Below are positions 19,230 to 60,430 of a stretch of 64,000 nt of DNA, piece after piece. Every line of letters begins with the position of its first letter. Within the stretch, counting starts at the first letter, position 1. Under the pieces are notes generated by a model. That model ran no database searches and was not told the origin of the DNA. It was given only the letters and a program-made list of their open reading frames with translations. The translations under genes and the position numbers were made by a program. This stretch comes from Histomonas meleagridis (Eukaryota > Parabasalia > Tritrichomonadida > Dientamoebidae). The stretch spans positions 310,001 through 374,000 of the forward strand of contig WSYJ01000081.1 in assembly GCA_020186115.1 (NCBI GenBank). Direction: 5' to 3'.

Positions 19230-19550
19230 TTCATGAATTTATTATTCTCGCAATTAGAAGTAATAAAATTGAAATTTTCAAATTACTTTTAAAACAAAAA
19301 AGAATATTCAATTTGAAAATATCAAAAATTCTAAAATAATATTCGGAAATTGTTTGGAACATTTAAAACATCATTCATTTTAACAACTGAAAAAGGCAAT
19401 ACTGAAATAATAAATTTACTTCTTCAACAAAGTGGAATTGACACTAACATGAGTGTTAGTATACAACTTCCACAAGCTAAAAAAGCCAAGAAAAACCCAC
19501 CTAAAGCTCAAAAAAATAACAACAAAAAGAGAAATACAAGAAAACATTAG
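19230..19550 (+). pseudogene. Terminal ankyrin modules with basic tail
   Basis: Plus strand. 19235-19330 gives a worn module (ILAIRSNKIEIFKLLLKQKR). A spacer follows, then 19368-19550 gives the last module (TSFILTTEKGNTEIINLLLQ) and a Lys/Asn-rich tail ending NNNKKRNTRKH and a stop. The basic tail looks like the natural C-terminus of an ankyrin protein. No upstream ORF in the same orientation is left, so this is probably the detached 3' end of a lost gene. Confidence 0.6.
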
Positions 19551-19559
19551 ATATAAAAC

Positions 19560-20513
19560 TTTTGGCAAACAGAAAAATAGTATGCAACAAATTTTAATGT
19601 TGCGTTTTTGAGTTGCATATGCATAAGCTGTTTTAAATAATTTGATTAATTTCCAAAAATTAGAATGAAATATTAAATTATTAAAATATATATTGAATTA
19701 AATGAATAAATATCTATAACATTTATATTAATTCCTTTTTGAAACAGAAGTAATTTAACAATTTCAGGGAAGCCTTTTTCAGACGCTATAATAAGTGCTG
19801 TTTTAAATAATTGAAAAAATTTCCATATATTATTTTGAACCATCAAACAATTTGATTACACATTACATGAAACAAAAAAATATTTTTAGAATTGATGTTA
19901 ATAACATTTTGTTTAAGAAGTAATTTTATTATTTCAGTTTTACCTTTTTCAGATGCTAACATAAGTGGTGTTCTAAATAATATAAACAATTTCCAAATAT
20001 TATTTTAAATCATAAAATTATTTTATTAAATTTCACATAAGTAAAATAATTATCAAAGGTATTAATATCAATTCCTTCTTTTTCGATAAATAATTGCACA
20101 CATTCACAATCACCTTCTAGAATTGCAGACATAAATGCAGTCCTATATTATATAAATAATTTTGAAATATTATTTTTAAACATCAAATAATCAAATTATT
20201 TAATCAATAAAGTAAAGAAATATCTTTAACATTTAAATCGATTTCTTTTTGATTAAGAAGCATTTCAATTATTTTTATGCGATGATAAAAAGTTGCAATT
20301 ATAAGTGCTGTTCTAAATTATATAAATAATATCCATATATTATTTTAAAATATCAAATTATTAAAATAAATAATATATGAAACAAATAAATATTTTTTGC
20401 ATTAATATCAATTCCTTCTTGCTCAAGAAGTAATTTAACTATTTTTGTATAACCTTTTTTAGATGCATAAATAAGTGCTGTTTCAAATAAATTAAATATT
20501 TTCCAAATATTAT
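19560..20513 (-). repeat. Array of six ankyrin modules, 170-bp period
   Basis: Minus-strand modules start at a Thr-Ala-(Leu) codon group whose complement (aagtgctg or variants) lies at 20473, 20303, 20133, 19963, 19793 and 19625. The first four intervals are exactly 170 bp and the last is 168, with a 2-bp deletion in the final module. Modules are 29 codons, differ in sequence (TALI, TALM, TAFM, TPLM starts) and are separated by 83-nt spacers with stops in the reading frame. The array continues directly from the ORF at 20514-21698. Coding use of the modules would need the spacers to be removed. Confidence 0.8.
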
Positions 20514-21698
20514 TTAGAAATATAAAAAAATTGAAATAAATAATAAATAAAATAAATATATATTTTTAGCATTAATATCAAACCCTTTTTGCATCAAAAG
20601 AAATTTTATAAGTTCAATATTTTGTGATTTTATTGAAGAAACTATGATATCATTTGGAATTTGATGATTATGAAGAAAATATTTTACAAGATACAAATTC
20701 CCAATTTTTGCTGTTTTATTAATAATATAATTGGTGACATCCATTCCTTCTTTTTCTAAAAATGTAAAAAGTTCATAGTTATAATATTTGATACATTTAG
20801 CACCTAATTTTTCGGAACTATTGACTATTAAAATTTTATTTTCATAAAGATATTTAAAAATATTATTTTTATGAAACTGAATTGCAGTTTCATATGCATC
20901 TTTAAATGATACATGATTTTGTTGACATAAATGAATAATTTCAAGATTTCCACCTGCAACTGCATATTTACCTGCATTATATACATTTGCACCATTCATA
21001 AGTAAATATTTAAAGCATTTAACAGAAGAAAAAAATGCTGCATAATCAATTAATGTAACATTACTTTGGCTAATAAAAGAACATCTTTCATAAAGTGATG
21101 GTTCTATTGTTTGATTAAAATCAAAATTTGGTTGTGATGATATTTCTTGAAGTTTTTCTATTTCATTATTTCGAATCATTTTAGCAATTTCATTTGGATT
21201 CACTCCTTCTTCAATTAATTTCTTATGAAGCTCCCAATCATTCTTTGATAATTCTTCATAATTTTCCGCGATTTTTCTATGAAATTTATCTGAAATTACG
21301 ATTTGATAGCCTTTTTTTGGAAAACGATGTATAAAATATGCTATATCTTTGAAAATGTATGGTTCAATAAAACTACATTCAATCAATTTATCAAGAAGAT
21401 AAAAAGATTCATGCTCATATTGTCTGCATAATAGATAATTCTTCAAAATTTTATTAAATGCTGGTTTGATTTTTTTATTTTCTTCGAATTTTTGAATTTC
21501 CATTATGAATTTTATATATATTCCATAATCTTTTACTTCCAAAATAAATGAAATGTATAACATATGAATAATGATTAAATTAAATGAATATGGATGAGTA
21601 TGATCAAATTTGTTAATTATTAAGTTTATTGAGCGAATAATATTTTCTTTGTCTAAACTAAATATTATTTGTTTGATATTTTGAAGTGTTTCATTCAT
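20514..21698 (-). CDS. DUF3447-type ankyrin protein (open 5' part)
   Basis: 394 residues. The N-terminal half has the trichomonad ankyrin-family head (YEELSKNDWELHKKLIEEGVNPNEIAKMIRNNEIEKLQEISSQ in pieces, then a LYERCSFI block and TLIDYAAFFSSVKCFKYLLMNGA). Ankyrin-like repeats follow, with KYAVAGGNLEIIHLC. The last repeat ends GFDINAKNIYLFYLL and then reads into the first AT-rich spacer before stopping, so the final 14 residues are spacer. The head occurs in all three long ankyrin genes here. Ankyrin repeats mediate protein binding; no other domain is present. The next module begins 83 nt after the Ala-Lys codons, in a different frame. Confidence 0.8.
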   Translation of the reverse strand: MNETLQNIKQIIFSLDKENIIRSINLIINKFDHTHPYSFNLIIIHMLYISFILEVKDYGIYIKFIMEIQKFEENKKIKPAFNKILKNYLLCRQYEHESFYLLDKLIECSFIEPYIFKDIAYFIHRFPKKGYQIVISDKFHRKIAENYEELSKNDWELHKKLIEEGVNPNEIAKMIRNNEIEKLQEISSQPNFDFNQTIEPSLYERCSFISQSNVTLIDYAAFFSSVKCFKYLLMNGANVYNAGKYAVAGGNLEIIHLCQQNHVSFKDAYETAIQFHKNNIFKYLYENKILIVNSSEKLGAKCIKYYNYELFTFLEKEGMDVTNYIINKTAKIGNLYLVKYFLHNHQIPNDIIVSSIKSQNIELIKFLLMQKGFDINAKNIYLFYLLFISIFLYF

Positions 21699-21899: not shown

Positions 21900-22430
21900 A
21901 AAAAAACATAGGTATGAATCCTGCAGATATCGAATTCAAGAAAAAATTATTGATAAAATTTGCTTCAATAATTTTATATTTCAATATAATAATTGTGAAA
22001 TATTTAATACAGTATTCCTAAGTGCATCTAAATATAGCAAAACAAAAGTCTTTAAATTAATTCGTGAGCACAAAGAAATTAATGTCAATTGTAAAAATCT
22101 TTTTATATTTTATGTTATATTCATCTTAATCGTTTCATATTTCAAAAAACATTTTGAAATTATTTCAATCATTTTAAACAGTATGTATACTTGCATCAAA
22201 AAAAAGTAAAACAGAAACATTTCTTTTACTTCTAGAACAAGAAGGAATAATGCTAAAGATATTTATTTGTTTTGTTCAGAATTTATTTTAATAATTTGAT
22301 ATTTTAATATAAGATTTGGAATTTGTTTAGAATATTTTTTACGGCACTCATGAGAGCTCAAAAAGGCCATTCAAAAATAATTAAATTATTACTTGACAAA
22401 GAAGGAATTCTTATTTATAATATTCATATT
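21900..22430 (+). pseudogene. Strongly diverged ankyrin modules and spacers
   Basis: Plus strand modules begin at Thr codons at 22009 (TVFLSASKYSKTKVFKLI), 22178 (TVCILASKKSKTETFLLLL) and 22341 (TALMRAQKGHSKIIKLLL). Spacings are 169 and 163 bp. A partial repeat end (PADIEFK) lies at about 21917-21940. The spacers keep recognisable pieces of the standard one (CATATTTCAAAA, GAAATTATTT) even though the modules are very diverged. No start codon or long ORF joins them. Confidence 0.6.
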
Positions 22431-22449
22431 TAGTTTCATGAATTTATGT

Positions 22450-22800
22450 TTCCAAATAATATTTTTAGATCAATCCAATTATTTAGTGATTTACTTGACA
22501 AAGCAATGCAAAAAGAACAAAATGAATTAGTTCAATTCTACTGGAGCATCCTGTTCAGACTAAAGATTTAGGAAGATCGGATTTTTTTATTAATTTTAGA
22601 GGGACATGTGTTTTTAAAAAGAAACAAGAACTTAAAACTGATGCAGTCATAAATTAATCTTTTGGCTAGTACTTAATACACCAAATGAACAAAGTCCAGC
22701 GCTTATAACATCTGAAGTTCGAGAAGCAGTAGAAGATACAATCTATTACTTTATAACAAAATTACGTCTTTCAGATAAATTAATTTATAACATCATCCTT
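22450..22800 (+). pseudogene. Degraded coding remnant of unknown origin
   Basis: Short plus-strand frames such as NTPNEQSPALITSEVREAVE (about 22679-22738) are broken by stops and shifts. Composition is less AT-rich than the surrounding ankyrin debris, which suggests a decayed gene or transposon. The family is not recognised. Confidence 0.3.
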
Positions 22801-22809
22801 AAGTGGACA

Positions 22810-22895
22810 AAATTGTTTTGATATTAATTTCTTTATCTAAAAGTAATTGTACTATTTCCATATTATTATTTATGACTGCTATATGAAGTGCTGTT
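22810..22895 (-). repeat. Single ankyrin module, 58-kb type
   Basis: The minus strand reads TALHIAVINNNMEIVQLLLD, nearly the module of the 58-60 kb array, ending in KEINIK and then non-repeat sequence. It is an isolated copy. The following 22896-23381 holds a few 20-nt-unit fragments and otherwise nothing recognisable. Confidence 0.65.
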
Positions 22896-23381
22896 TCAAA
22901 TTATTAAAACATGTTTCAAATTATTAAAATGAATAGTTTTTGCATTAACATCAATTCCTTTATTATAAATTATAAATTAGAACCTGCCTTAAGTTAGACT
23001 TCTATATTAAGCATGCACTTGACTTTATGCATTCGATTTAACAATAAATTGACCAAGTCGAAGCAGGGTTCCATTTTTTGAATGATCGATACTTTGTTCC
23101 CTACCCTTTGGTAAACCATTCATTTCATTTTCTATTCAACCTGTTTTTGCATTCAGTTTTTATTAATATTTTTTAAATTCACAAAAATCATTCAATTTCG
23201 ATGTTAACTATTCAATCACATTCCAACCCACCCCTGTGGTTGTGATCGTATTTCACTGAAAAAGCCAGGCTCTATTTGAATGATTCTTTTTTTTTGGATG
23301 AAATTAGAAAATTTGTTGTTGTGGATAGCTTAAACTATAAGTATATTTTTTAAATTCACAAATAAATAAATTTTGAATTTT

Positions 23382-39069: not shown

Positions 39070-39171
39070 ACAGAACTTATGCTTGCACCTGAAAATGGTC
39101 ATATAGAAATTGTTAAATTACTTCTTGGACAAAAAGGAATTGATGTTAATGCTAAAGATACTTCCGGATAA
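39070..39171 (+). pseudogene. Final ankyrin module with natural end
   Basis: A spacer end (TTTGGAAATTATTTTAATTA) is followed by TELMLAPENGHIEIVKLLLG, QKGIDVNAKDTSG and a stop. It is the only module here that carries the ankyrin turn past Ala-Lys (DTSG) without a spacer, so it shows what a spacer-free junction looks like at the protein level. No upstream modules remain. Confidence 0.6.
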
Positions 39172-39420: not shown

Positions 39421-39577
39421 TTTTGACCGTTAATTTTTCAGACCAATATCCCTATTTACGAAAAAGTGGAGTTTCACACGAAAAATAGGCCACCCCAAAC
39501 CATGAGGATAACCGGTTGCACTTGTCCACTTGTCGATGTGTGTTTGAATTAAAAAGTGCTATCATCAAATCACTTCA
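39421..39577 (+). promoter_or_regulatory. Actin promoter elements
   Basis: TTTTGACCGTTAA (39421-39433, Myb-like motif in inverse orientation) lies about 155 bp before the actin ATG. TCACTTCA (39570-39577) fits the trichomonad initiator consensus TCAY(T/A) and sits about 17 bp before the ATG, the expected distance. Confidence 0.55.
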
Positions 39578-39588
39578 CATTTATTCTA

Positions 39589-40720
39589 ATGGCTGAAGAC
39601 GAAGTTCAAACATTAGTTATCGATAATGGTTCCGGTATGTGCAAGGCTGGTTTCGCTGGTGATGAAGCACCACGCTCAGTTTTCCCATCCATTGTTGGTC
39701 GTCCAAAGTATGTCCAAACAATCGCAGGTGGTCAAAACAAGGATACATATGTTGGTGATGAAGCATGTGCTAAGGCAGGTATCCTTATCCTCAAGTACCC
39801 AATTGAACACGGTATCGTTACTAACTGGGACGATATGGAAAAGATCTGGCACCACACATTCTACAACGAATTACGTGTTGACCCAGCTGAACACCCAGTT
39901 CTTCTTACAGAAGCCCCAATGAACCCAAAGGCTAACCGTGAAAAGATGATCCAACTCCAATTCGAAACATTCAACGTTCCAGCATTCTATGTTGGTATCC
40001 AAGCCGTTCTTTCCCTTTACTCATCAGGTCGTACAACTGGTATCGTTTTCGATGCAGGTGATGGTGTTTCCCACACAGTTCCAATCTACGAAGGTTACTC
40101 CCCTTCCACACGCCATCATGCGTATCAACCTCGCCGGTCGTGATCTCACAGCCTACCTCCAAAAGATCCTCAACGAACGTGGCTACACCTTCACAACATC
40201 CGCCGAAAAGGAAATTGTTCGTGATATCAAGGAGAAGCACGCATATGTTGCACTTGATTTCGACGAAGAAATGAACAAGGCCGCTACAACATCCGAATGC
40301 GACATCTCATACACACTTCCAGATGGCAACGTCATCACCATCGCCAACGAGCGCTTTAGGTGCCCAGAACTTCTTTTCAAGCCACACTTCAACGGCTTCG
40401 AATTCGAAGGTATTGATCAAACCCTCTTCAACTCCATCATGGCATGCGATATCGATGTCCGTAAGGATCTCTACGCTAACATTGTTCTTTCTGGTGGTAC
40501 CACAATGTTCGAAGGTCTCCCAGAACGTATGGAGAAGGAAATGGTCCGCCTCGCACCACCAACAATGAAGATCAAAGTCGTCGCTCCACCAGAACGTAAG
40601 TACGCAGTTTGGATCGGTGGCTCCATCCTCGCCTCCCTTGCCACATTCCCACAAATGGTTATCACACGTGATGAATACAACGAAGCTGGTCCAGGAATTG
40701 TCCACCGCAAGTGCTTCTAA
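39589..40720 (+). CDS. Conventional actin with a one-base frameshift
   Basis: Start [20 protein letters not shown] at 39589. All actin blocks are present over 376 codons if one base is ignored: [92 protein letters not shown], and the C-terminal [10 protein letters not shown]. At 40100-40103 there are four Cs (ACTCCCCTTCC) where the actin codons for Tyr-Ser-Leu-Pro need three, so the first frame ends at 40143 and the rest is read from the next frame. Codons are strongly biased to C/T-ending forms (for example GTCGTCGCT), unlike neighbouring genes, which is typical of highly expressed genes. A sequencing or assembly error is likely; a very recent loss is the alternative. Confidence 0.93.
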
Positions 40721-40911: not shown

Positions 40912-41133
40912 TTTGTTTTTGGTTTACAAGGAACAGAAGATGAGAGAGCGCAGTGGATTATTTCAAAGCAAAGGAAATTCATTTATAAGATTGAGATTGC
41001 AGCTAAAGTTACTGATCGGGAAGGAGCTCAAATTAAGTATGGAGACTTGAAGAAGATCACAAAAATGGTTATGGAGTCAATAGGTAATGGACCATTTGGG
41101 CTCAGAGGCATAATTGATGAAAAACATTGTTAA
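40912..41133 (+). pseudogene. Orphan C-terminal ORF, less AT-rich
   Basis: An open stretch of 73 codons between stops, without ATG near its start, reads through TEDERAQWIISKQRKFIYKI, KVTDREGAQIKYGDLKKITK and ends RGIIDEKHC. The sequence is richer in G than its surroundings and ends at the edge of the ankyrin array. It looks like the end of a gene or mobile element truncated at 5'. The family is not recognised. Confidence 0.4.
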
Positions 41134-41220
41134 AGAAATTTTGGGGAAATGTATCTTCTAAGTAATAAAAGAAAACAATAACAAATTTATATTTATTTAC
41201 TTTGCAATAAAGGAAGTTCT

Positions 41221-43500
41221 TTATCGTTCTTGAAGTAATTTAACTATTTCTAAATAACCATTTAAAGATGCCCACATAAGTGCTGTTTTAAATAATGTAA
41301 ATAATTTCCAAATATTATAATAAAATACTAAATTATTTTTATAAATTTTAACTAAAACAAAGAAATATCTTGAATATTAATATCAATGCCTTCATGCTCT
41401 AGAAGTAATTTGACGATTTCTATGTTTCCATAAAAGGATGCCCATATAAGTGCTGTATTAAGTATTTCAAATGATTCCCAAATATTAATTTGAAGTATTC
41501 CAAAATTATTAAAATAAATATTATATAAAATAAGTAAATATTTTTAACATTAACTTCAATTCCATTTTGTTTAAGAAGTAATTTAACTATTTCTGTATGA
41601 CCTCTTCTAGATCCATAAATAAGTGCTGTTTCAAATAACTTAAATAATTTTCAAATATTACTGTGAAATAACAAACTATTAAAATAAATAACAAATAAAA
41701 CAAATAAATGTCTTTAGCATTAATATCAATACCTTCTTGTTCAAGAAGTAATTTAACTATTTCTATATGACCATTATTCGATGCTAAAATAAGTGCTGTA
41801 TTAAATAAGTCAAATAATTTCCGAATATTATTTTGAAATATGGAATTATCAAAATAAATATCAAATAAAACAAATCAATATCTTTAGCATTAAAGTCAAT
41901 GCCTTCTTGTTCAAGAAGTAATTTAACTATTTCTGTATGACCATTTTCAGATGCATAAATAAGTGCTGTCCAAAATAATTTAAATAAATCCCAAATATTA
42001 TTTTGAAATATTAAATTATTAAAATAAATACTGAATAAAACAAATAAATATTTTTAGCATTAATATCAATTCCTTCTTGTTCAAGAAGTAATTTAACTAT
42101 TTCTGTATGACCATTCATAGTTGCATACATAAGTGCTGTACAAAATAATTTAAATAAATCCCAAATATTATTTTGAAACATAAAATTATTAAAATAAATC
42201 ATAAATCAAACAAATAAATATTTTTTGCATTAATATTAATTCCTTTTTGTTCAAGAAGTAATTTAACTATTTCTGTATGACCATTATTCGATGCATACAT
42301 AAGTGCTGTTTTAAATAAGTTAAATAATTTCCGAATATTATTTTGAAATATTAAATTATCAAAATAAATATCAAATAAAACAAATCAATATCTTTAGCAT
42401 TAAAGTCAATGCCTTTTTGTTCAAGAAGTAATTTAACTATTTCTATATGACCATTATTCGATGCTAAAATAAGTGCTGTTTTAAATAAGTTAAATAATTT
42501 CCGAATATTATTTTGAAATATTAAATTATCAAAATAAATATCAAATAAAACAAATCAATATCTTTAGCATTAAAGTCAATGCCTTTTTGTTCAAGAAGTA
42601 ATTTAACTGTTTCTATATGAGCATTTTTAAGTGCTTTCAAGAGTGCTGTTTCAAATAATTTAAATAGTTTCTACATGTGATATTGAAATATTAAACTATA
42701 TAAAAAAAATTTTTAAAAAACATATAAACATTTTTTGCATTAATATCAGTTACCTTTTGTTCAAGAAGTAATTTAACGATTTCTGTATGACCTTTGGAAG
42801 ATGCTAAAATAAGTGCTGTATCAAATAATATGAATAAATTCTAAATATTATATTAAAATATTAAAATATTGAAGTAATTTTTAGATTATTAAAACGAATA
42901 TCAAACATATTTATCTTGAGATTTTTTTGTTCAAGAAGCAATTTGATTATTTTTATATTCCCTTTTTTAGATGCATAAAGAAGTGCTGTTTTAAATAATT
43001 TGGTGAATTCCCGAATATTATTTGAAAGTATTAAGTTATATTCAAAAACTTCAAATAATGTAAACAATTATCTTTTGCATTTATTTCAATGCTTTTTTGT
43101 TCAAGAAGTAATTTAACTATTTCTAAATGATAATTTTTAGATGCATAAATAAGAGAAGTTTTAAATATGTTGAATAATTTTTAAATATTATTTTAAGATT
43201 TTAAATTTAATCAACAAAATTTCAATATCATAAAAAAATATTTTTAATATTAATATCAATTCCTTTTTGTTGAAGTAATATTTTAACTATTTCTACATGA
43301 CCTTTTTTTGATGCATAAATAAATGCTGTGTTAAACATTTTAAATAATTTCCAAATATTATTTTGAAACATAAAATCATTAAAATAAATTTTTAATAAAA
43401 TATATAAATATCACTAAGATTTATTTTTAGATTTTTTTTGTCAACAAGTAATTTAACTATTTCCAACTGACCAATATAAGATGCATTTATTAGCGCTGTT
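41221..43500 (-). repeat. Array of 14 ankyrin modules, 170-bp period
   Basis: Minus strand. The complement of the Thr-Ala-Leu start (aagtgctgt or a variant) is at 43491, 43321, 43151, 42981, 42811, 42641, 42471, 42301, 42131, 41961, 41791, 41621, 41448 and 41278. Twelve of 13 intervals are exactly 170 bp and one is 173. Each module has 29 codons (TALI.AS..GHTEIVKLLLEQ..IDINAK); the modules read in detail are open although they differ at many positions. The 83-nt spacers contain stops and do not keep frame (170 is not a multiple of 3). The last module is shortened and ends KLLQER-stop at 41221, like a true gene end. The array follows the ORF 43521-44747. Confidence 0.88.
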
Positions 43501-43520
43501 TTAAATAATATAAATGATTA

Positions 43521-44747
43521 TCAAATAGTATTTTGAATTTTCATATTATTTAAATAATTATCTTTTGCATTGATACTAATTCCTTTTTGTTTCAAACAAT
43601 ATTTAACAAGTTCAATATTTTGTGATTCTGAAGAAAAAACTAAAATATTTTTTGGAATTTTATTATCTTTATGAAAATGTTTAATAAGATACATATTACC
43701 ATTTTTTGCTGCCTCTTGATAAAGGCCATTATTGATTTTCATTCCTTCTTTTTCTAGAAATGAGAAAATTTCAAAATTATTATGATAAATACATAAACTT
43801 CCTAAATAATTTAAATCATTAATTTCAATGATTTTATTTTCGCATAAATAATGAAAAATATCATTTTGGTGAAATTTAATTGCTGTTAAAGATGTTTCCT
43901 CAAATGATGAATGATTTTGCTCACATAAATGAATGATTTCAAGATTTCCACCTGCAACTGCATATTTGCCTGTATTTTCTACATTTGCATTATTCATAAG
44001 TAAATATTTAAAACATTTAATTGATCCAAAAAATGCTGCATAATCAATTAATGAAATTCCTTGATTAATAAATGTACATCTTTCATAAAGTGATGGTGCT
44101 ATTATTTGATTAATATCAAAATTACTTTGTGTTGACATTTCTTGAAGTTTTTCAATTTCATCATTTCGAATTATTTTTGCAACCTCATTCGGATTATGTC
44201 CTTCTTCAATTAATTTCTTATGAAGCTCCCAATTGTTCTTTGAAAGCTCATCATAGTTTTGTATGAATGAGTAATAAAATTTATTATTTTTTAATCGTTC
44301 GATTTCATCAAATTTCATATAATGTGCAAAATATAAATTATGTACTTGTGTTAATATATTTCTATCAATTAAATTTTGTTCAATCATATTTTCAAGAAGA
44401 TAACATTGTTCCTGTAATTTGGCTTCGATTATACATCTACTAAAAATTTCTATGAGATTAGGAATGTTTTTATTTATTTCTTCTTCTTTTATTTGAATTA
44501 ACTTTAAATATGATAAAAATATATCACTTGATTTAGCTTGTGAGAAAAATGAATAAAAAACTAAGTTGCTTATTACTAAATTATATGAATACGGAAAATT
44601 ATTATCAAATGAATCGATTGTTTGTTGAAATGATAATTCAATATTTTCTTCATTTAAATTAAATATAACTTTTTCAAGTGTTGTTAGTAACTGTAAATAT
44701 CCAGATTTGTAATTGTTTTTACTAGTTGAATTACCGTTAGCTATCAT
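43521..44747 (-). CDS. DUF3447-type ankyrin protein (open 5' part)
   Basis: 408 residues from ATG 44747. Residues about 1-180 form the helical family head (LLTTLEKVIFNLNEENIELS, NNWELHKKLIEEGHNPNEVA). Then IIRNDEIEKLQEMSTQ, LYERCTFINQGISLIDYAAF and ankyrin-like repeats (KYAVAGGNLEIIHLCEQNHS). The last repeat ends GISINAKD and the frame runs about 12 codons into a 63-nt spacer before a stop. The first downstream module begins at about 43499. If spacers were removed the protein would gain up to 14 more ankyrin repeats. AACGGTCGTT lies about 45 bp upstream of the ATG. Confidence 0.82.
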   Translation of the reverse strand: MIANGNSTSKNNYKSGYLQLLTTLEKVIFNLNEENIELSFQQTIDSFDNNFPYSYNLVISNLVFYSFFSQAKSSDIFLSYLKLIQIKEEEINKNIPNLIEIFSRCIIEAKLQEQCYLLENMIEQNLIDRNILTQVHNLYFAHYMKFDEIERLKNNKFYYSFIQNYDELSKNNWELHKKLIEEGHNPNEVAKIIRNDEIEKLQEMSTQSNFDINQIIAPSLYERCTFINQGISLIDYAAFFGSIKCFKYLLMNNANVENTGKYAVAGGNLEIIHLCEQNHSSFEETSLTAIKFHQNDIFHYLCENKIIEINDLNYLGSLCIYHNNFEIFSFLEKEGMKINNGLYQEAAKNGNMYLIKHFHKDNKIPKNILVFSSESQNIELVKYCLKQKGISINAKDNYLNNMKIQNTI

Positions 44748-44788
44748 ATCGAGAACACTTAAATTTAAGGCAGTTTGATCAAACGTTT

Positions 44789-44800
44789 AAAACGACCGTT
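44789..44800 (-). promoter_or_regulatory. AACGGTCGTT motif before ankyrin gene
   Basis: AACGACCGTT on the plus strand (44791-44800), that is AACGGTCGTT facing the ankyrin gene, 44-53 bp upstream of its ATG. It is the clearest promoter-proximal copy of the recurrent motif. Confidence 0.5.
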
Positions 44801-54690: not shown

Positions 54691-56358
54691 ATGGTGGGCT
54701 TAGGCGTAATTGTTATTCCTATTATGTCAATTCTTTGCGTTATCATTACCATCATATTCTTTTGGAAATATGGTGCTTTTAAACACCCATGGTATGCTTC
54801 AATTTTAATGATTACTTCTGCATCAATTCCAAGTATTATGATAATTGGTGCTCTCCCATACGACATTTCAAATTGCTTATTTGGAACTCAAGCTACAGAT
54901 TCTACTGCCTTAAAATTATTCTTTCAAATTCTTTATTGGGTTTCTTTTGCTTTATCCTGGGTTATCAATCCACTTGTTGTATCATATCTTAGCTATAGCA
55001 ATAGTATTTCACTGAAGCATCGAATTTGGATGACCATTCGTGAAAATCTTATATTTTACGGAGTTGTATTTGGTCTTGTAGCCGTTGGTGTTATTATTCT
55101 AGTAGCTACAAACCGTATGACCATTGATTCCATTTTTCCATTAGCGATAGCTTTAGCCAATGTATATGGTTTACTTTTATTATGTCTTTGTTTAGGTCAT
55201 TCTTTTGTATCCTTACCACGAGATTTATGGCAACAAGCCGATCCCAGCTATAAATACACGTATTCACTTTTCCGAATATCACAAGAAATCAATTCCGCCG
55301 CCAAAATCCTGGCTGATGGCGAAGCAGTTCTTTCCTGTGCCTACAATGCCCGTCACCAGCTTACTGGGAACACCAATTATATGTTTCAAGAAAAAGGCGA
55401 ATCACGCATCGAGCGTTTGAACCTCATCAAAGGCACAGTTCCGATCCCTGATGGCTGCTTTGAGCCAGAGACCAAGAATAAGGCGATCAAGAAGTTCCAA
55501 AATTTTGATTGGTCTCGATGCACCGATGCGAAACTCGAAGATTTCTTTTCCATTATGGACAAGACCATTACATCTCTCACCGAGTCATCTAGTTTTATTG
55601 AACATTCTGCACATGATGCCATGGAAGCACTTCAACAATATCAAAGTCATACACGTTCGAAGCTGATCGTGAAAAGGACATTTTCCATTGTATTAATTGT
55701 TTTTAATGTGATTTGTTTGTGGGGTGAGATTTGCTTAATGTTTAATCCCAAGTTTTCATTGTTTTATCAGATATCACATGTTACTATGCCGCAACTTGTT
55801 GATATCTTATTAATATCGACTCCGATCATTACATATTTAACTGTTTTGGGTTGTTGGAGTTTGATGCACTTAAAAATCGGGTCATTTTATAAGTTCGTCA
55901 AAGGGACAACAAACGCAAACACGTTAAATTACTTCGCGAACTTCTTGTGTAGACTCGGGCCGACTATAGGTTATCATTACATGCAACAAATAGGCGCCGA
56001 AGGAAGTCAATTCGTGAAGGTGATGGGAGTAATGGACGTCGTCGTGTTCATCGGCGATAAGTGGATAACATTAATCGTTTCGCCAATTTTGTTGATCCTT
56101 GTGATTGTCTTCTTCGTGTTTAAGTTGGACGAAAAGTTCGCAATGCTGTGCGGTTGCGATTGCAACGTGTTCGAGTCTGAGTTCGTCGACTTCAGAGAGC
56201 TGGAGAAAGGAGAAAAGGTGCTGACGGAGCTGGAGCCAGCAGCAAGAGAATTGGTGGAGGAGGGATTCACGTACAGAAGAGTGTTGGATGGATCATTGCC
56301 GCAAAGATATAGAAGAAATAAAAAGTTCGGAGAATTGGAAGAAAACTTAAACAATTAA
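54691..56358 (+). CDS. LMBR1-like multipass membrane protein
   Basis: 555 residues with about nine hydrophobic segments, five before and four after a central cytoplasmic helical stretch (about 190-330). The segment GHSFVSLPRDLWQQADPSYK after helix 5 parallels the GxGLVxxPRxxW motif of LMBR1-domain proteins (LMBRD1/2, lipocalin-receptor family). Likely a plasma-membrane, endosomal or lysosomal protein. The C-terminal about 80 residues are hydrophilic and end EELEENLNN. The last codons overlap the start of a 51-bp minisatellite. Base composition is richer in G+C over the final 300 bp than elsewhere in the gene. Confidence 0.72.
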   Translation: MVGLGVIVIPIMSILCVIITIIFFWKYGAFKHPWYASILMITSASIPSIMIIGALPYDISNCLFGTQATDSTALKLFFQILYWVSFALSWVINPLVVSYLSYSNSISLKHRIWMTIRENLIFYGVVFGLVAVGVIILVATNRMTIDSIFPLAIALANVYGLLLLCLCLGHSFVSLPRDLWQQADPSYKYTYSLFRISQEINSAAKILADGEAVLSCAYNARHQLTGNTNYMFQEKGESRIERLNLIKGTVPIPDGCFEPETKNKAIKKFQNFDWSRCTDAKLEDFFSIMDKTITSLTESSSFIEHSAHDAMEALQQYQSHTRSKLIVKRTFSIVLIVFNVICLWGEICLMFNPKFSLFYQISHVTMPQLVDILLISTPIITYLTVLGCWSLMHLKIGSFYKFVKGTTNANTLNYFANFLCRLGPTIGYHYMQQIGAEGSQFVKVMGVMDVVVFIGDKWITLIVSPILLILVIVFFVFKLDEKFAMLCGCDCNVFESEFVDFRELEKGEKVLTELEPAARELVEEGFTYRRVLDGSLPQRYRRNKKFGELEENLNN

Positions 56359-56845
56359 ATATAATAAACATGAAATCTTTACTAAGTTAATGAATATTTA
56401 TACAATTAAATATAATAAACATGAAATATTTACTAAGTTAATGAATATTTATACAATTAAATATAATAAACATGAAATATTTACTAAGTTAATGAATATT
56501 TATGCAATTAAATATAATAAACATGAAATATTTACTAAGTTAATGAATATTTATACAATTAAATATAATAAACATGAAATATTTACTAAGTTAATGAATA
56601 TTTATGCAATTAAATATAATAAACATGAAATATTTACTAAGTTAATGAATATTTATACAATTAAATATAATATAAACATGAAATCTTTACTAAGTTAATG
56701 AATATTTATACAATTAAATATAATAAACATGAAATATTTACTAAGTTAATGAATATTTATGCAATTAAATATAATATAAACATGAAATATTTACTAAGTT
56801 AATGAATATTTATACAATTAAATATAATAAACATGAAATATTTAT
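56347..56845 (+). repeat. 51-bp minisatellite at LMBR1-like gene end
   Basis: About nine to ten head-to-tail copies of a 51-bp unit (AATGAATATTTATACAATTA, then AATATAATAAACATGAAATA, then TTTACTAAGTT). Two copies have an extra ATA-type triplet giving 54 bp. The first copy overlaps the stop codon of the LMBR1-like gene. Because the unit is 17 codons, an ORF of repeated MNIYTIKYNKHEIFTKL appears, but there is no sign that it is translated. Confidence 0.92.
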
Positions 56846-57023: not shown

Positions 57024-58316
57024 ATGTTAAATCACATACATAATGATGATATTACTACCATAAACACAGGAGATCAAAATTTGAATCATTTATCAACATG
57101 CTTGAAATCCCTAATTGAGCTTGAGAAAACTATTTTTAGTTTGACTGAAGAAAACATCCAGTCTTCTCTAAAAAAAGTATTGGGATTTTTTGATCTAAAT
57201 TATCCCTATACATTTAATATTATTATAAGTAACATGGTTTATAATTCATTTTCATCACGAAAGTATGTATTTGATATTTACTTAAATTTTTTAAAAGCAT
57301 TTGAAATGAAAGAAGAAGAAATTAATCAAAATATCGTTAAACTAATACCAATATTTATCAAACGTATATCTACAAAGAACACACAAGAATCATATTATTT
57401 AATCGAAAAAATGATTGAACAAAATTTAATTGATAAAAATATCACTAAAAATATTTATTCAAAATATTTTGCTCATTATAAAGCAAAAGAAGAAAACCAA
57501 AAACAAGCCCAAACGGCAAATGGAAATGATCCAACAGAAAAATACTTTTTGGATCATTATGAAGAACTTTCAAAGAATGATTGGGAGCTTCATAAGAAAT
57601 TAATTGAAGAAGGACATAATCCAAATGAAGTTGCAAAAATAATTCGAAATGATGAAATAGAAAAACTTCAAGAAATATCATCACAATCAAACTTTTATTT
57701 TGATCAAACAATTGAACCATCGCTTTATGAAAGATGTTCATTTATTAATAAAGAAAATGTTACATTAATTGATTATGCAGCATTTTTTGGATCAGTTAAA
57801 TGTTTTAAATATTTACTTATGAATGGCTCCGATATAGAAAACACAGGTAAATATGCTGTTGCAGGTGGAACTCTTGAAATCATTCATTTATGTGAGCAGA
57901 ATCATTCATCATTTGAAGGTGCATATGAAACAGCAATTGAATTTCATCGAAATGATATCTTTAAATATATTTTTGAGAATAAAATAGAAAAAATACAATC
58001 AATAACGAAAACGTCTGAAGATAAAACAAATGATTTGGTAAGTTTTTGTATTAAAAATGATAATTATGAAATTTTAGCATTTTTGGCAGAAAAAGAAATA
58101 GTTAATGTTGATGATATATATGAATCAGCAAGAAATGGAAATTTATATCTCGTTAAATATTTCCTTCAAAATAATCAGATTCCAAAAGATATTTTGTCAT
58201 ATGCTTCAGAATCAGATAATATTGAACTTGTGAAATATGTTTTAGATAAAGAAGGAATTGATGTTAATGCAAAAAATATTCATTTTGATAATTTAATATA
58301 TGTTTTAATAATTTAG
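57024..58316 (+). CDS. DUF3447-type ankyrin protein (open 5' part)
   Basis: 430 residues from ATG 57024. It has the same design as the other two ankyrin genes: a helical head (LIELEKTIFSLTEENIQSSL), SKNDWELHKKLIEEGHNPNE, LYERCSFINKENVTLIDYAA, KYAVAGGTLEIIHLCEQNHS, then repeats down to VLDKEGIDVNAKN. It then reads about 14 codons into the first spacer and stops. The spacer is 63 nt (head plus two 20-nt units) before the next module at 58338. Some 150 bp of upstream AT-rich sequence shows no clear initiator. Confidence 0.82.
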   Translation: MLNHIHNDDITTINTGDQNLNHLSTCLKSLIELEKTIFSLTEENIQSSLKKVLGFFDLNYPYTFNIIISNMVYNSFSSRKYVFDIYLNFLKAFEMKEEEINQNIVKLIPIFIKRISTKNTQESYYLIEKMIEQNLIDKNITKNIYSKYFAHYKAKEENQKQAQTANGNDPTEKYFLDHYEELSKNDWELHKKLIEEGHNPNEVAKIIRNDEIEKLQEISSQSNFYFDQTIEPSLYERCSFINKENVTLIDYAAFFGSVKCFKYLLMNGSDIENTGKYAVAGGTLEIIHLCEQNHSSFEGAYETAIEFHRNDIFKYIFENKIEKIQSITKTSEDKTNDLVSFCIKNDNYEILAFLAEKEIVNVDDIYESARNGNLYLVKYFLQNNQIPKDILSYASESDNIELVKYVLDKEGIDVNAKNIHFDNLIYVLII

Positions 58317-60430
58317 AATATGTTTTAATAATTTGAAACAGCACTTCATATAGCAGTTAAAAATAATAATATAGAAATAGTAAAATTACTTTTAGAACAA
58401 AAAGGAATTGATGTTAATGCAAAAACTATTCATTTGAATAATTTGAAATATATTTTAATAATTTGCAACAGCACTTCATATAGCAGTTAAAAATAATAAT
58501 ATAGAAATAATAAAATTACTTTTAGATAAAGAAGGAATTGATGTTAATGCAAAATATATTCATTTGAATAATTTTATATATGTTTTAATAATTTGGAATA
58601 TGTTTTAATAATTTGAAACAGCACTTCATATTGCAGTTAAAAATAATAATATAGAAATAGTAAAATTACTTTTAGATAAAGAAGGAATTGATATTAATGC
58701 AAAATATATTAATTTGAATAATTTAGAATATGTTTTAATAATTTGAAATATGTTTTAATAATTTGAAATATGTTTTAATAATTTGAAACAGCACTTCATA
58801 TAGCAGTTAGAAATAATAATATAGAAATAGTAAAATTACTTTTAGATAAAGAAGGAATTGATGTTAATGCAAAAACTTTTCATTTGAATAATTTGAAATA
58901 TGTTTTAATAATTTAGAATATGTTTTAATAATATGGAATATGTTTTAATAATTTGAAATATGTTTTAATAATTTGAAACAGCACTTCATATAGCAGTTAA
59001 AAATAATAATATAGAAATAGTAAAATTACTTTTAGAACAAAAAGGAATTGATGTTAATGCAAAAACTATTCATTTGAATAATTTTATATATGTTTTAATA
59101 ATATGGAATATGTTTTAATAATTTGCAACAGCACTTCATATAGCAGTTAAAAATAATAATATAGAAATAGTAAAATTACTTTTAGATAAAGAAGGAATTG
59201 ATGTTAATGCAAAATATATTCATTTGAATAATTTGGAACATGTTTTAATAATTTGAAATATATTTTAATAATTTGCAACAGCACTTCATATAGCAGTTGA
59301 AAATAATAATATAGAAATCGTAAAATTACTTTTAGATAAGGAAGGAATTGATGTTAATGCAAAAAATATTCATTTGAATAATTTTATATATGTTTTAATA
59401 ATTTTATGTATGTTTTAATAATTTGGAATATGTTTTAATAATTTGGAATATGTTTTAATAATTTAAAATATGTTTTAATAATTTGAAATATGTTTTAATA
59501 ATTTGAAATATGTTTTAATATTTTATAATATGTTTTAATAATTTGGAATATGCTTTAATAATTTGAAACAGCACTTCATATAGCAGTTAGAAATAATAAT
59601 ATAGAAATCGTAAAATTACTTTTAGATAAGGAAGGAATTGATGTTAATGCAAAATATATTCATTTGAATAATTTTATATATGTTTTAATAATTTGGAATA
59701 TGTTTTAATAATTTAGAATATGTTTTAATAATTTTATATATGTTTTAATAATTTAGAATATGTTTTAATAATTTAGAATATGTTTTAATAATTTTGGATA
59801 TGTTTTAATAATTTTGGATATGTCTTAATAATTTGAAGTATGTTTTAATAATTTGAAATATGTTTTAATAATTTGAAATATGTTTTAATAATTTGAAACA
59901 GCACTTCATATAGCAGTTGAAAATAATAATATAGAAATAGTAAAATTACTTTTAGATAAAGAAGGAATTGATGTTAATGCAAAATATATTCATTTGAATA
60001 ATTTTATATATGTTTTAATAATTTGGAATATGTTTTAATAATTTGAAATATGTTTTAATAATTTGAAACAGCACTTCATATAGCAGTTAGAAATAATTAT
60101 ATAGAAATAATAAAATTACTTTTAGATAAAGAAGGAATTGATGTTAATGCAAAATATATTCATTTGAATAATTTTATATATGTTTTAATAATTTGGAATA
60201 TGTTTTAATAATTTGAAACAGCACTTCATATTGCAGTTAGAAATAATAATATAAAAATAGTAAAATTACTTTTAGATAAAGGAATTGATGTTAATGCAAA
60301 AACTATTCATTTTAATAATTTGAAATGTGTTATAATAATTTTGGACATGTTTTAACAATATTTGACTGCAATTTAAATTGCAGAACAAAAAGGATACACA
60401 AAAATAGTAAATTTACTTCTTGAAAAAAGC
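58270..60430 (+). repeat. Ankyrin-module array with 20-bp-quantised spacers
   Basis: Modules start (ACAGCACTTCAT) at 58338, 58468, 58618, 58788, 58978, 59128, 59278, 59568, 59898, 60068 and 60218, with a last worn one at about 60365. Spacings are 130, 150, 170, 190, 150, 150, 290, 330, 170 and 150 bp, each 130 + 20n. Modules (TALHIAVKNNNIEIVKLLLD KEGIDVNAK) are nearly identical. Spacers are a 23-nt head starting near TATTCATTTG plus one to eleven copies of ATATGTTTTAATAATTTGAA. The last module has a stop after TAI and ends in ENQ-like sequence, so the array end is decayed. Confidence 0.9.

Follow-up and report, generated by a model that had tools for sequence, protein, structure and literature searches.

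Putative unconventional introns between the modules of a split ankyrin gene family in Histomonas meleagridis

Histomonas meleagridis is a single-celled parasite of poultry. In a 64,000-nucleotide stretch of its genome (contig WSYJ01000081.1, positions 310,001 to 374,000; here called the window, within which all positions below are counted unless another contig is named), an ankyrin gene on the minus strand (41221-44747) begins with a long open reading frame (ORF) and continues as an array of single ankyrin modules separated by AT-rich spacers. The current work shows that these modules evolve as coding sequence and that the spacers do not. As judged from the sequence, the spacers are probably (at roughly 60%) unconventional introns, many per gene, which the cell removes. 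The array would then be the 3' part of one ankyrin gene, in which every repeat downstream of the N-terminal ORF forms a small exon of its own and the spacer between exons is taken from the RNA by an unconventional process. An earlier note on this DNA had left three readings, namely unconventional introns, silent cassettes for recombination and recently homogenised relics; the first of these fits best.

The ORF (43521-44747) encodes an N-terminal region with DUF3447 and ankyrin repeats (Pfam PF11929, PF12796) and runs through an N-cap module into spacer 1. The N-cap module, NILVFSSESQNIELVKYCLKQKGISINAK (43563-43649), is the final repeat inside the ORF; it is a 15th module that starts at 43649, 150 bp ahead of the first module of the TAL type. 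Spacer 1, of 63 nt (43500-43562), is followed by module 2, the first TAL module (43413-43499), and by spacer 2, of 83 nt (43330-43412). Modules 3-14, all free of stops, and spacers 3-13 occupy 41370-43329 at a pitch of 170 bp, once 173 bp. After the last spacer, of 83 nt (41287-41369), the gene closes with a C-cap module, TALMWASLNGYLEIVKLLQER (41221-41286), which has its own TAA stop; the stop codon of this short final module, which reads LLQER before it, ends at position 41221.

Tandem Repeats Finder reported a single 170-bp array at 41232-43562 (13.7 copies, 77% matches, 1% indels), and an nhmmer profile placed 14 TAL modules from 43499 down to 41286 on the minus strand. Their 13 intervals, 12 of 170 bp and one of 173 bp, are those that the earlier note had given. 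Its description of the modules as open is also borne out: in-frame stops are present in 0 of 14 modules (the N-cap and 13 others, the last module not being counted), and each other frame has stops in 14 of 14. All five of the single modules tested exceeded the Pfam PF00023 cut-off of 21.1 bits, with scores of 22.1-39.8 bits. The array is confirmed as real, and chance is excluded.

Coding constraint on modules but not on spacers

DNA of the window array recurs across the searched genome (43.28 Mb, 121 contigs) in at least 178 matches. The window and the DNA portions read from the genome together gave 39 arrays with 397 intervals, all of one design, in which an ankyrin module of 28-29 codons alternates with a spacer, mostly of 83 nt (type A) or of 43+20k nt (type B).

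For the stop test, distinct units of 87+83 nt were taken from each array with at least four of them, and the expected number of in-frame module stops was simulated from the substitution spectrum of the adjoining spacers. Only 1 of 236 units from 29 arrays had a stop, where about 88 were expected from spacer divergence; without L012, an array discussed below, the count was 1 of 195 against 65. In the window array it was 0 of 12 against 6.5, and none of 500 simulations was as low. As a control, the pooled simulation was applied to the open frame of the spacer itself, for which it predicted stops in 120 of 190 and 63 were seen. The simulations thus overstate the expectation because the units are related, at a cost which the control sets at about twofold, not eightyfold.

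Module length tells the same story for the 385 of 436 matches that aligned nearly end to end, the other 51 being left out of the count. No net change was found in 349 and a change of 3 or 6 nt in 25; only 11 had lost or gained a frame-breaking number of bases, seven of them in L012 and one each in L020, L025, L051 and a decayed plus-strand array of the window. The spacers that accompany in-frame modules outside L012 fall into all length classes modulo 3 (266, 65 and 10), and more than one such class occurs within 25 of the 39 arrays. L012 itself (C72:127500-137300) has 39 modules with one-base length changes in runs of A, by which seven modules are off frame by one base; this suggests sequencing error.

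In 19 of the 39 arrays the final module found was recognized by eye to carry a stop of its own close to the end of the repeat, and further terminal stops lie one spacer on, likewise by eye, in L012, L026, L040 and L045. The type B C-caps resemble one another (QIA.QKGYTEI.NLL). At the other end, an open frame of at least 300 codons leads into the first module found in 16 of 39 arrays, and 82 of 85 N-terminal matches among those listed genome-wide have no inner stop.

Relatives were taken from the 18 best protein matches; P0011 and P0015 belong to Histomonas itself, and the 16 others, 37-56% identical in protein, come mostly from ENA contigs that are perhaps metagenomic. In fifteen of these 16, the protein either terminates at one shared codon following N-A-K or changes beyond it. 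Seven of them end exactly two codons later, as does Histomonas P0011, an NCBI-named model which ends at the first spacer. Contig ends may lie behind the break points of some relatives, the DNA having been read for P0011 alone. P0003 and P0010 run on into one more module. In P0003, which shares 54% identity with the window protein, one junction of five residues has no spacer, SK-NVMFE-SAL. The tail of P0002 aligns with the type A spacers of Histomonas at a mean score of 42.6, compared with -10.6 (standard deviation 10.3) for shuffled spacers, and that of P0012 at 33.6 compared with -2.5; shorter tails score more weakly, and P0016 does not rise above the best of its shuffles. On these alignments at least one relative appears to carry a homologous spacer, and the spacers would have been gained before Histomonas and these relatives split.

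These results bear on the idea that the array is an untranslated relic tail, in which an insertion broke a contiguous ankyrin gene, the 170-bp unit spread as a satellite by unequal crossing-over, and only the N-terminal ORF is used. The spacers do stop the frame, several arrays are damaged, units are shuffled within arrays (see below), and the end of P0011 at the first spacer is as this idea would have it. Nevertheless, it is made unlikely by the stop test, by the rarity of frame-breaking module lengths (four outside L012) and by the break point shared with relatives, the same three tests that disfavour the relics of the earlier note; the terminal stops of 19 arrays count against it as well.

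Spacer borders and modes of removal

Most spacers lack canonical splice signals. Possible borders were examined by counting stops in the joined ends of 303 distinct spacers, each split being written as (5' nt kept, 3' nt kept); the border and spacer-frame tests exclude four arrays (L012, L011, L043 and L044) and any unit whose module scored low or contained a stop. With 15 nt kept, stops arise in 4-5 of the 303 for (9,6), (10,5), (11,4) and (12,3), in 6 for (15,0) and in 8 for (7,8) and (14,1); (8,7) and (13,2) are poor, with 211 and 128. With 12 nt kept, (5,7), (6,6) and (7,5) give one stop each, and with 9 nt kept four splits give one.

The kept part of the spacer would be 12 or 15 nt, both of which these counts allow, and no single border rule was found that fits all of the 303 spacers. 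A kept length of 15 nt is favoured by the linkers, five residues long, in P0003 and in this genome's contiguous ankyrins (NFAGY). If 15 nt are kept, the junction would read N-A-K-[D/N]-I-[Y/H]-[F/L]-x-T-A-L and the repeat would have 33-34 residues; if 12 are kept, it would read N-A-K-[D/N]-I-F-x-T-A-L with 32-33 residues. Only with the rest of the spacer removed would the repeat period, 28-29 codons plus 4 or 5, come to about 33 residues. The repeat of 34 codons with 68 nt removed that the earlier note had considered corresponds to 15 nt kept and is possible, and removal of 71 nt fits the stop counts at least equally. Joining the spacer ends at the repeated ATTTG does leave 14 nt, as it had stated; the frame is maintained with other borders. 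Among 28 spacers of a divergent subset, identity was 78% at nt 1-12, 85% at nt 72-80 and 76% inside.

Ordinary spliceosomal introns with weak sites could be proposed instead. Trichomonas species have introns of 23-28 and 56-196 nt (PMC12316389), the spacers lie in or near this range, and GT occurs within the first 20 nt of 217 of the 303. However, an in-frame GT..AG within 9 nt of the 15-nt linker, with a generic exon start, is possible in only 40 of them, and the branch motif ACTAA near the 3' end was found in none (CTAAC in 1, CTAAT in 2, TTAAC in 5), which leaves this explanation very improbable. In the window, the 3' intron motif with up to two mismatches occurs 8 times, all with two mismatches, where 2.9 were expected; 1 of 100 shuffles reached 8.

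The ribosome might also deal with the spacer, by hopping over it or by shifting frame into it. The length is fixed in one spacer family, P0010 has an in-frame spacer, and the downstream frame stays open through the consensus 83-nt spacer (YLFVLF..KLFK-TAL); in that frame 63 of 190 spacers bear stops, compared with 112 from permuted columns. Translational bypass demands that take-off and landing codons match, and here they are mostly mismatched (TTG in 209 of 305, TTT in 276 of 305); spacers also reach 243 nt. The downstream-frame stops in those 63 spacers and in 45 of 47 type B spacers speak against such recoding too, and we consider it slightly less credible even than weak spliceosomal sites. 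Simple read-through in the downstream frame is ruled out by the same stops.

Several observations weigh against the preferred reading of the spacers as unconventional introns. Over all length classes, stops were present in 11 of 397 modules (six in L012, two in L011, one each in L013, L015 and L050). No long open frame leads into the first module found in 23 of 39 arrays; in some of these the first module found is not an N-cap, and in others the frame is broken. Upstream of five arrays, picked for their short N-termini, frameshifts or a stop were seen. The stop counts do not single out 15 nt, because for several splits that retain 6, 9 or 12 nt a stop arises in at most one of the 303 spacers. 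Stops stand at the third spacer codon three times in L049, which has 12 modules and a C-cap but lacks a long open N-terminus, once in L053, at its first spacer, and probably also in the relatives that end two codons past K; the stops of L049 and L053 are compatible with (6,6) at 12 nt and with (7,8) at 15 nt. In P0010 the reading frame continues unbroken through a spacer between two ankyrin modules. The 83-nt length is better kept than an intron seems to need, and the 83-nt family yielded no consensus RNA fold (z +0.35, 25 spacers). Finally, the earlier note had proposed the ratio of nonsynonymous to synonymous substitution rates (dN/dS) between modules as a check. Structural codons gave 0.40 in the window array (bootstrap 0.27-0.62) and 0.59 over all arrays, but the result is not clean, with off-frame and spacer controls spanning 0.46-1.49, so the ratio is not relied upon as sole proof.

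Nor was an end duplex found in the 83-nt family (z +0.14, 40 spacers), and a search of 41000-44800 against Rfam was negative at E values up to 1. Unlike type A, the type B spacers (for example 58275-58337) fold below their shuffles, with a mean z of -2.1 (25 spacers) and of -1.5 for the end duplex (40 spacers).

Variable codons and shuffling within arrays

Across modules, TAL..A, G and EIVKLLL are kept. Diversity is highest at module codons 4, 5, 8, 9, 11 and 12 and at the last spacer codon, just before ACA, which may be GAA, AAT, AAA, CAA, AGA, TAT, TGG, GAT, CGA or others; the one stop in 305 belongs to the window's decayed plus-strand array. Because this codon is hypervariable, the last three nucleotides of the spacer look like exon. 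The variable codons are presumably the concave-face positions of the ankyrin repeat, those varied in designed ankyrin proteins, so that variation appears to peak at codons of the binding face.

Shuffling within arrays is strong. In L013, 26 units are made up of 11 modules and 16 spacers in 22 pairs, and all four combinations (the four-gamete test) occur at 210 of 465 site pairs in L013, 34 of 120 in L024 and 73 of 231 in L014. As secondary effects, similar spacers may help modules to recombine, and the hypervariable codons may amount to a natural repertoire of binding surfaces.

Such features would also be expected of a silent cassette store, whose modules donate by gene conversion to an expressed ankyrin gene as in antigenic variation. 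Surface codons are hypervariable, with a dN/dS of 1.44-1.46, modules and spacers are shuffled combinatorially between similar flanks, and contiguous ankyrin genes exist in this genome. A search with one narrow pattern gave 8 matches, among which no spacer-free, clean in-frame junction of this module type was present; the two contiguous in-frame junctions were of ordinary ankyrin and of other sequence. Moreover, N-cap modules differ in kind from TAL modules, and last modules bearing a stop would be useless to a donor store, so that this second reading of the earlier note leaves the terminal modules unexplained. The store is decidedly unlikely, though somewhat less so than spliceosomal introns with weak sites.

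Other arrays and known systems

Two further genes of this kind are present in the window. In one, on the minus strand (19632-21698), the ORF at 20514-21698 is followed by modules with 83-nt spacers, and a 170-bp array spans 19632-20651. In the other, of type B on the plus strand (57024-60428), the ORF at 57024-58316 is followed by modules whose spacers, of 43+20k nt, are composed of a 20-mer, and the array (58188-60428) has a pitch of 130-330 bp. Its C-cap (60365-60428) has TAA where related C-caps have CAA. On the plus strand, a short and decayed array with the same kinds of module and spacer (21949-22548) lacks an open in-frame N-terminus. Stray modules of the family lie on both strands at 39070-39156, 35-111, 172-389, 19242-19447 and 22818-22981.

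Among the in-frame spacers outside L012, 244 of 341 are 83 nt long and the remainder 63, 66, 69, 86 or 43+20k nt; the forms of type A other than 83 nt are 66, 69, 86 and 60-63 nt. The exact 170-bp pitch stressed at first is thus a property of the 83-nt family and not a general one. Type B spacers consist of a 20-mer such as TTTTAATAATTTGAAATATG and grow to 243 nt, with 23 nt in one gene. The type B module differs by exactly one codon (DKEGIDV or DKGIDV), and pitches of 147, 167 and 187 stand beside 150, 170 and 190. Since 83 equals 43+2x20, and the type A profile also matches type B spacers weakly (best E 1e-5), the two families appear to be variants of a single element.

Spliceosomal introns of Trichomonas (PMC12316389) are likewise short AT-rich pieces in parabasalid protein genes, of a similar length range. 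They are few (63 active in T. vaginalis), begin with GT, end with AG and carry ACTAA in a fused branch motif, whereas these signals are mostly missing from the Histomonas spacers, of which one array may hold more than 30. The nearest published system, in the available parts of the sources, is that of the nonconventional introns of euglenids and diplonemids (PMC6221363, PMC4770533), which lack canonical borders, as the spacers may, and whose removal process is also described as unexplained. Those introns form a stable structure joining their ends, and none was found in the 83-nt family. The Euglenozoa are a distant lineage, and the spacers of Histomonas always stand at one place of the repeat; their borders may be non-canonical, GT-AG being mostly impossible, though the stop counts do not fix the border nucleotides. 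Two ankyrin proteins of Tritrichomonas foetus (P0022, P0029) share the related N-terminal region and ankyrin tail, but their repeats are contiguous, without spacers.

Designed ankyrin repeat proteins carry variable concave-face residues on a fixed framework; the Histomonas version is natural and encoded in split modules.

The Histomonas genome paper (PMC8529796), in the portion available, describes a scarcity of introns: it counts 573 for the virulent strain, with no gene having more than one. The word 'ankyrin' did not turn up in a term search of its main text. A table in a proteome paper names an ankyrin protein, KANK1 (PMC10063853), which may or may not be of this family. Among the titles and abstracts listed on Histomonas ankyrins, introns and transcriptomes and on Trichomonas ankyrins and introns, in a literature coverage without most subscription journals, none concerned such spacers. 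Whether the spacers form a class of non-GT-AG introns that is this parabasalid's own, multiplied in the ankyrin family at the same turn of the repeat and doubling as recombination joints for module shuffling, seems to us evenly balanced. The same joint reading would place up to dozens of such introns in a gene, although no gene of this genome is reported to contain more than one intron.

If the spacers are removed, a parabasalid has introns lacking canonical signals, and the first spacer truncates gene models in a large and variable family, as it does P0011. The recognition of such introns would become testable on many natural variants, and the array would be a genetic design for a shuffled ankyrin repertoire.

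Elsewhere in the window, an actin gene (39556-40720) lies in two overlapping frames (ORFs 39556-40143 and 39989-40720), perhaps through an extra base in a run of C, which would be either a sequencing error or the mark of a pseudogene. Between two genes, at 56347-56844, a 51-bp repeat occurs in tandem, with 9.7 copies and 96% matches.
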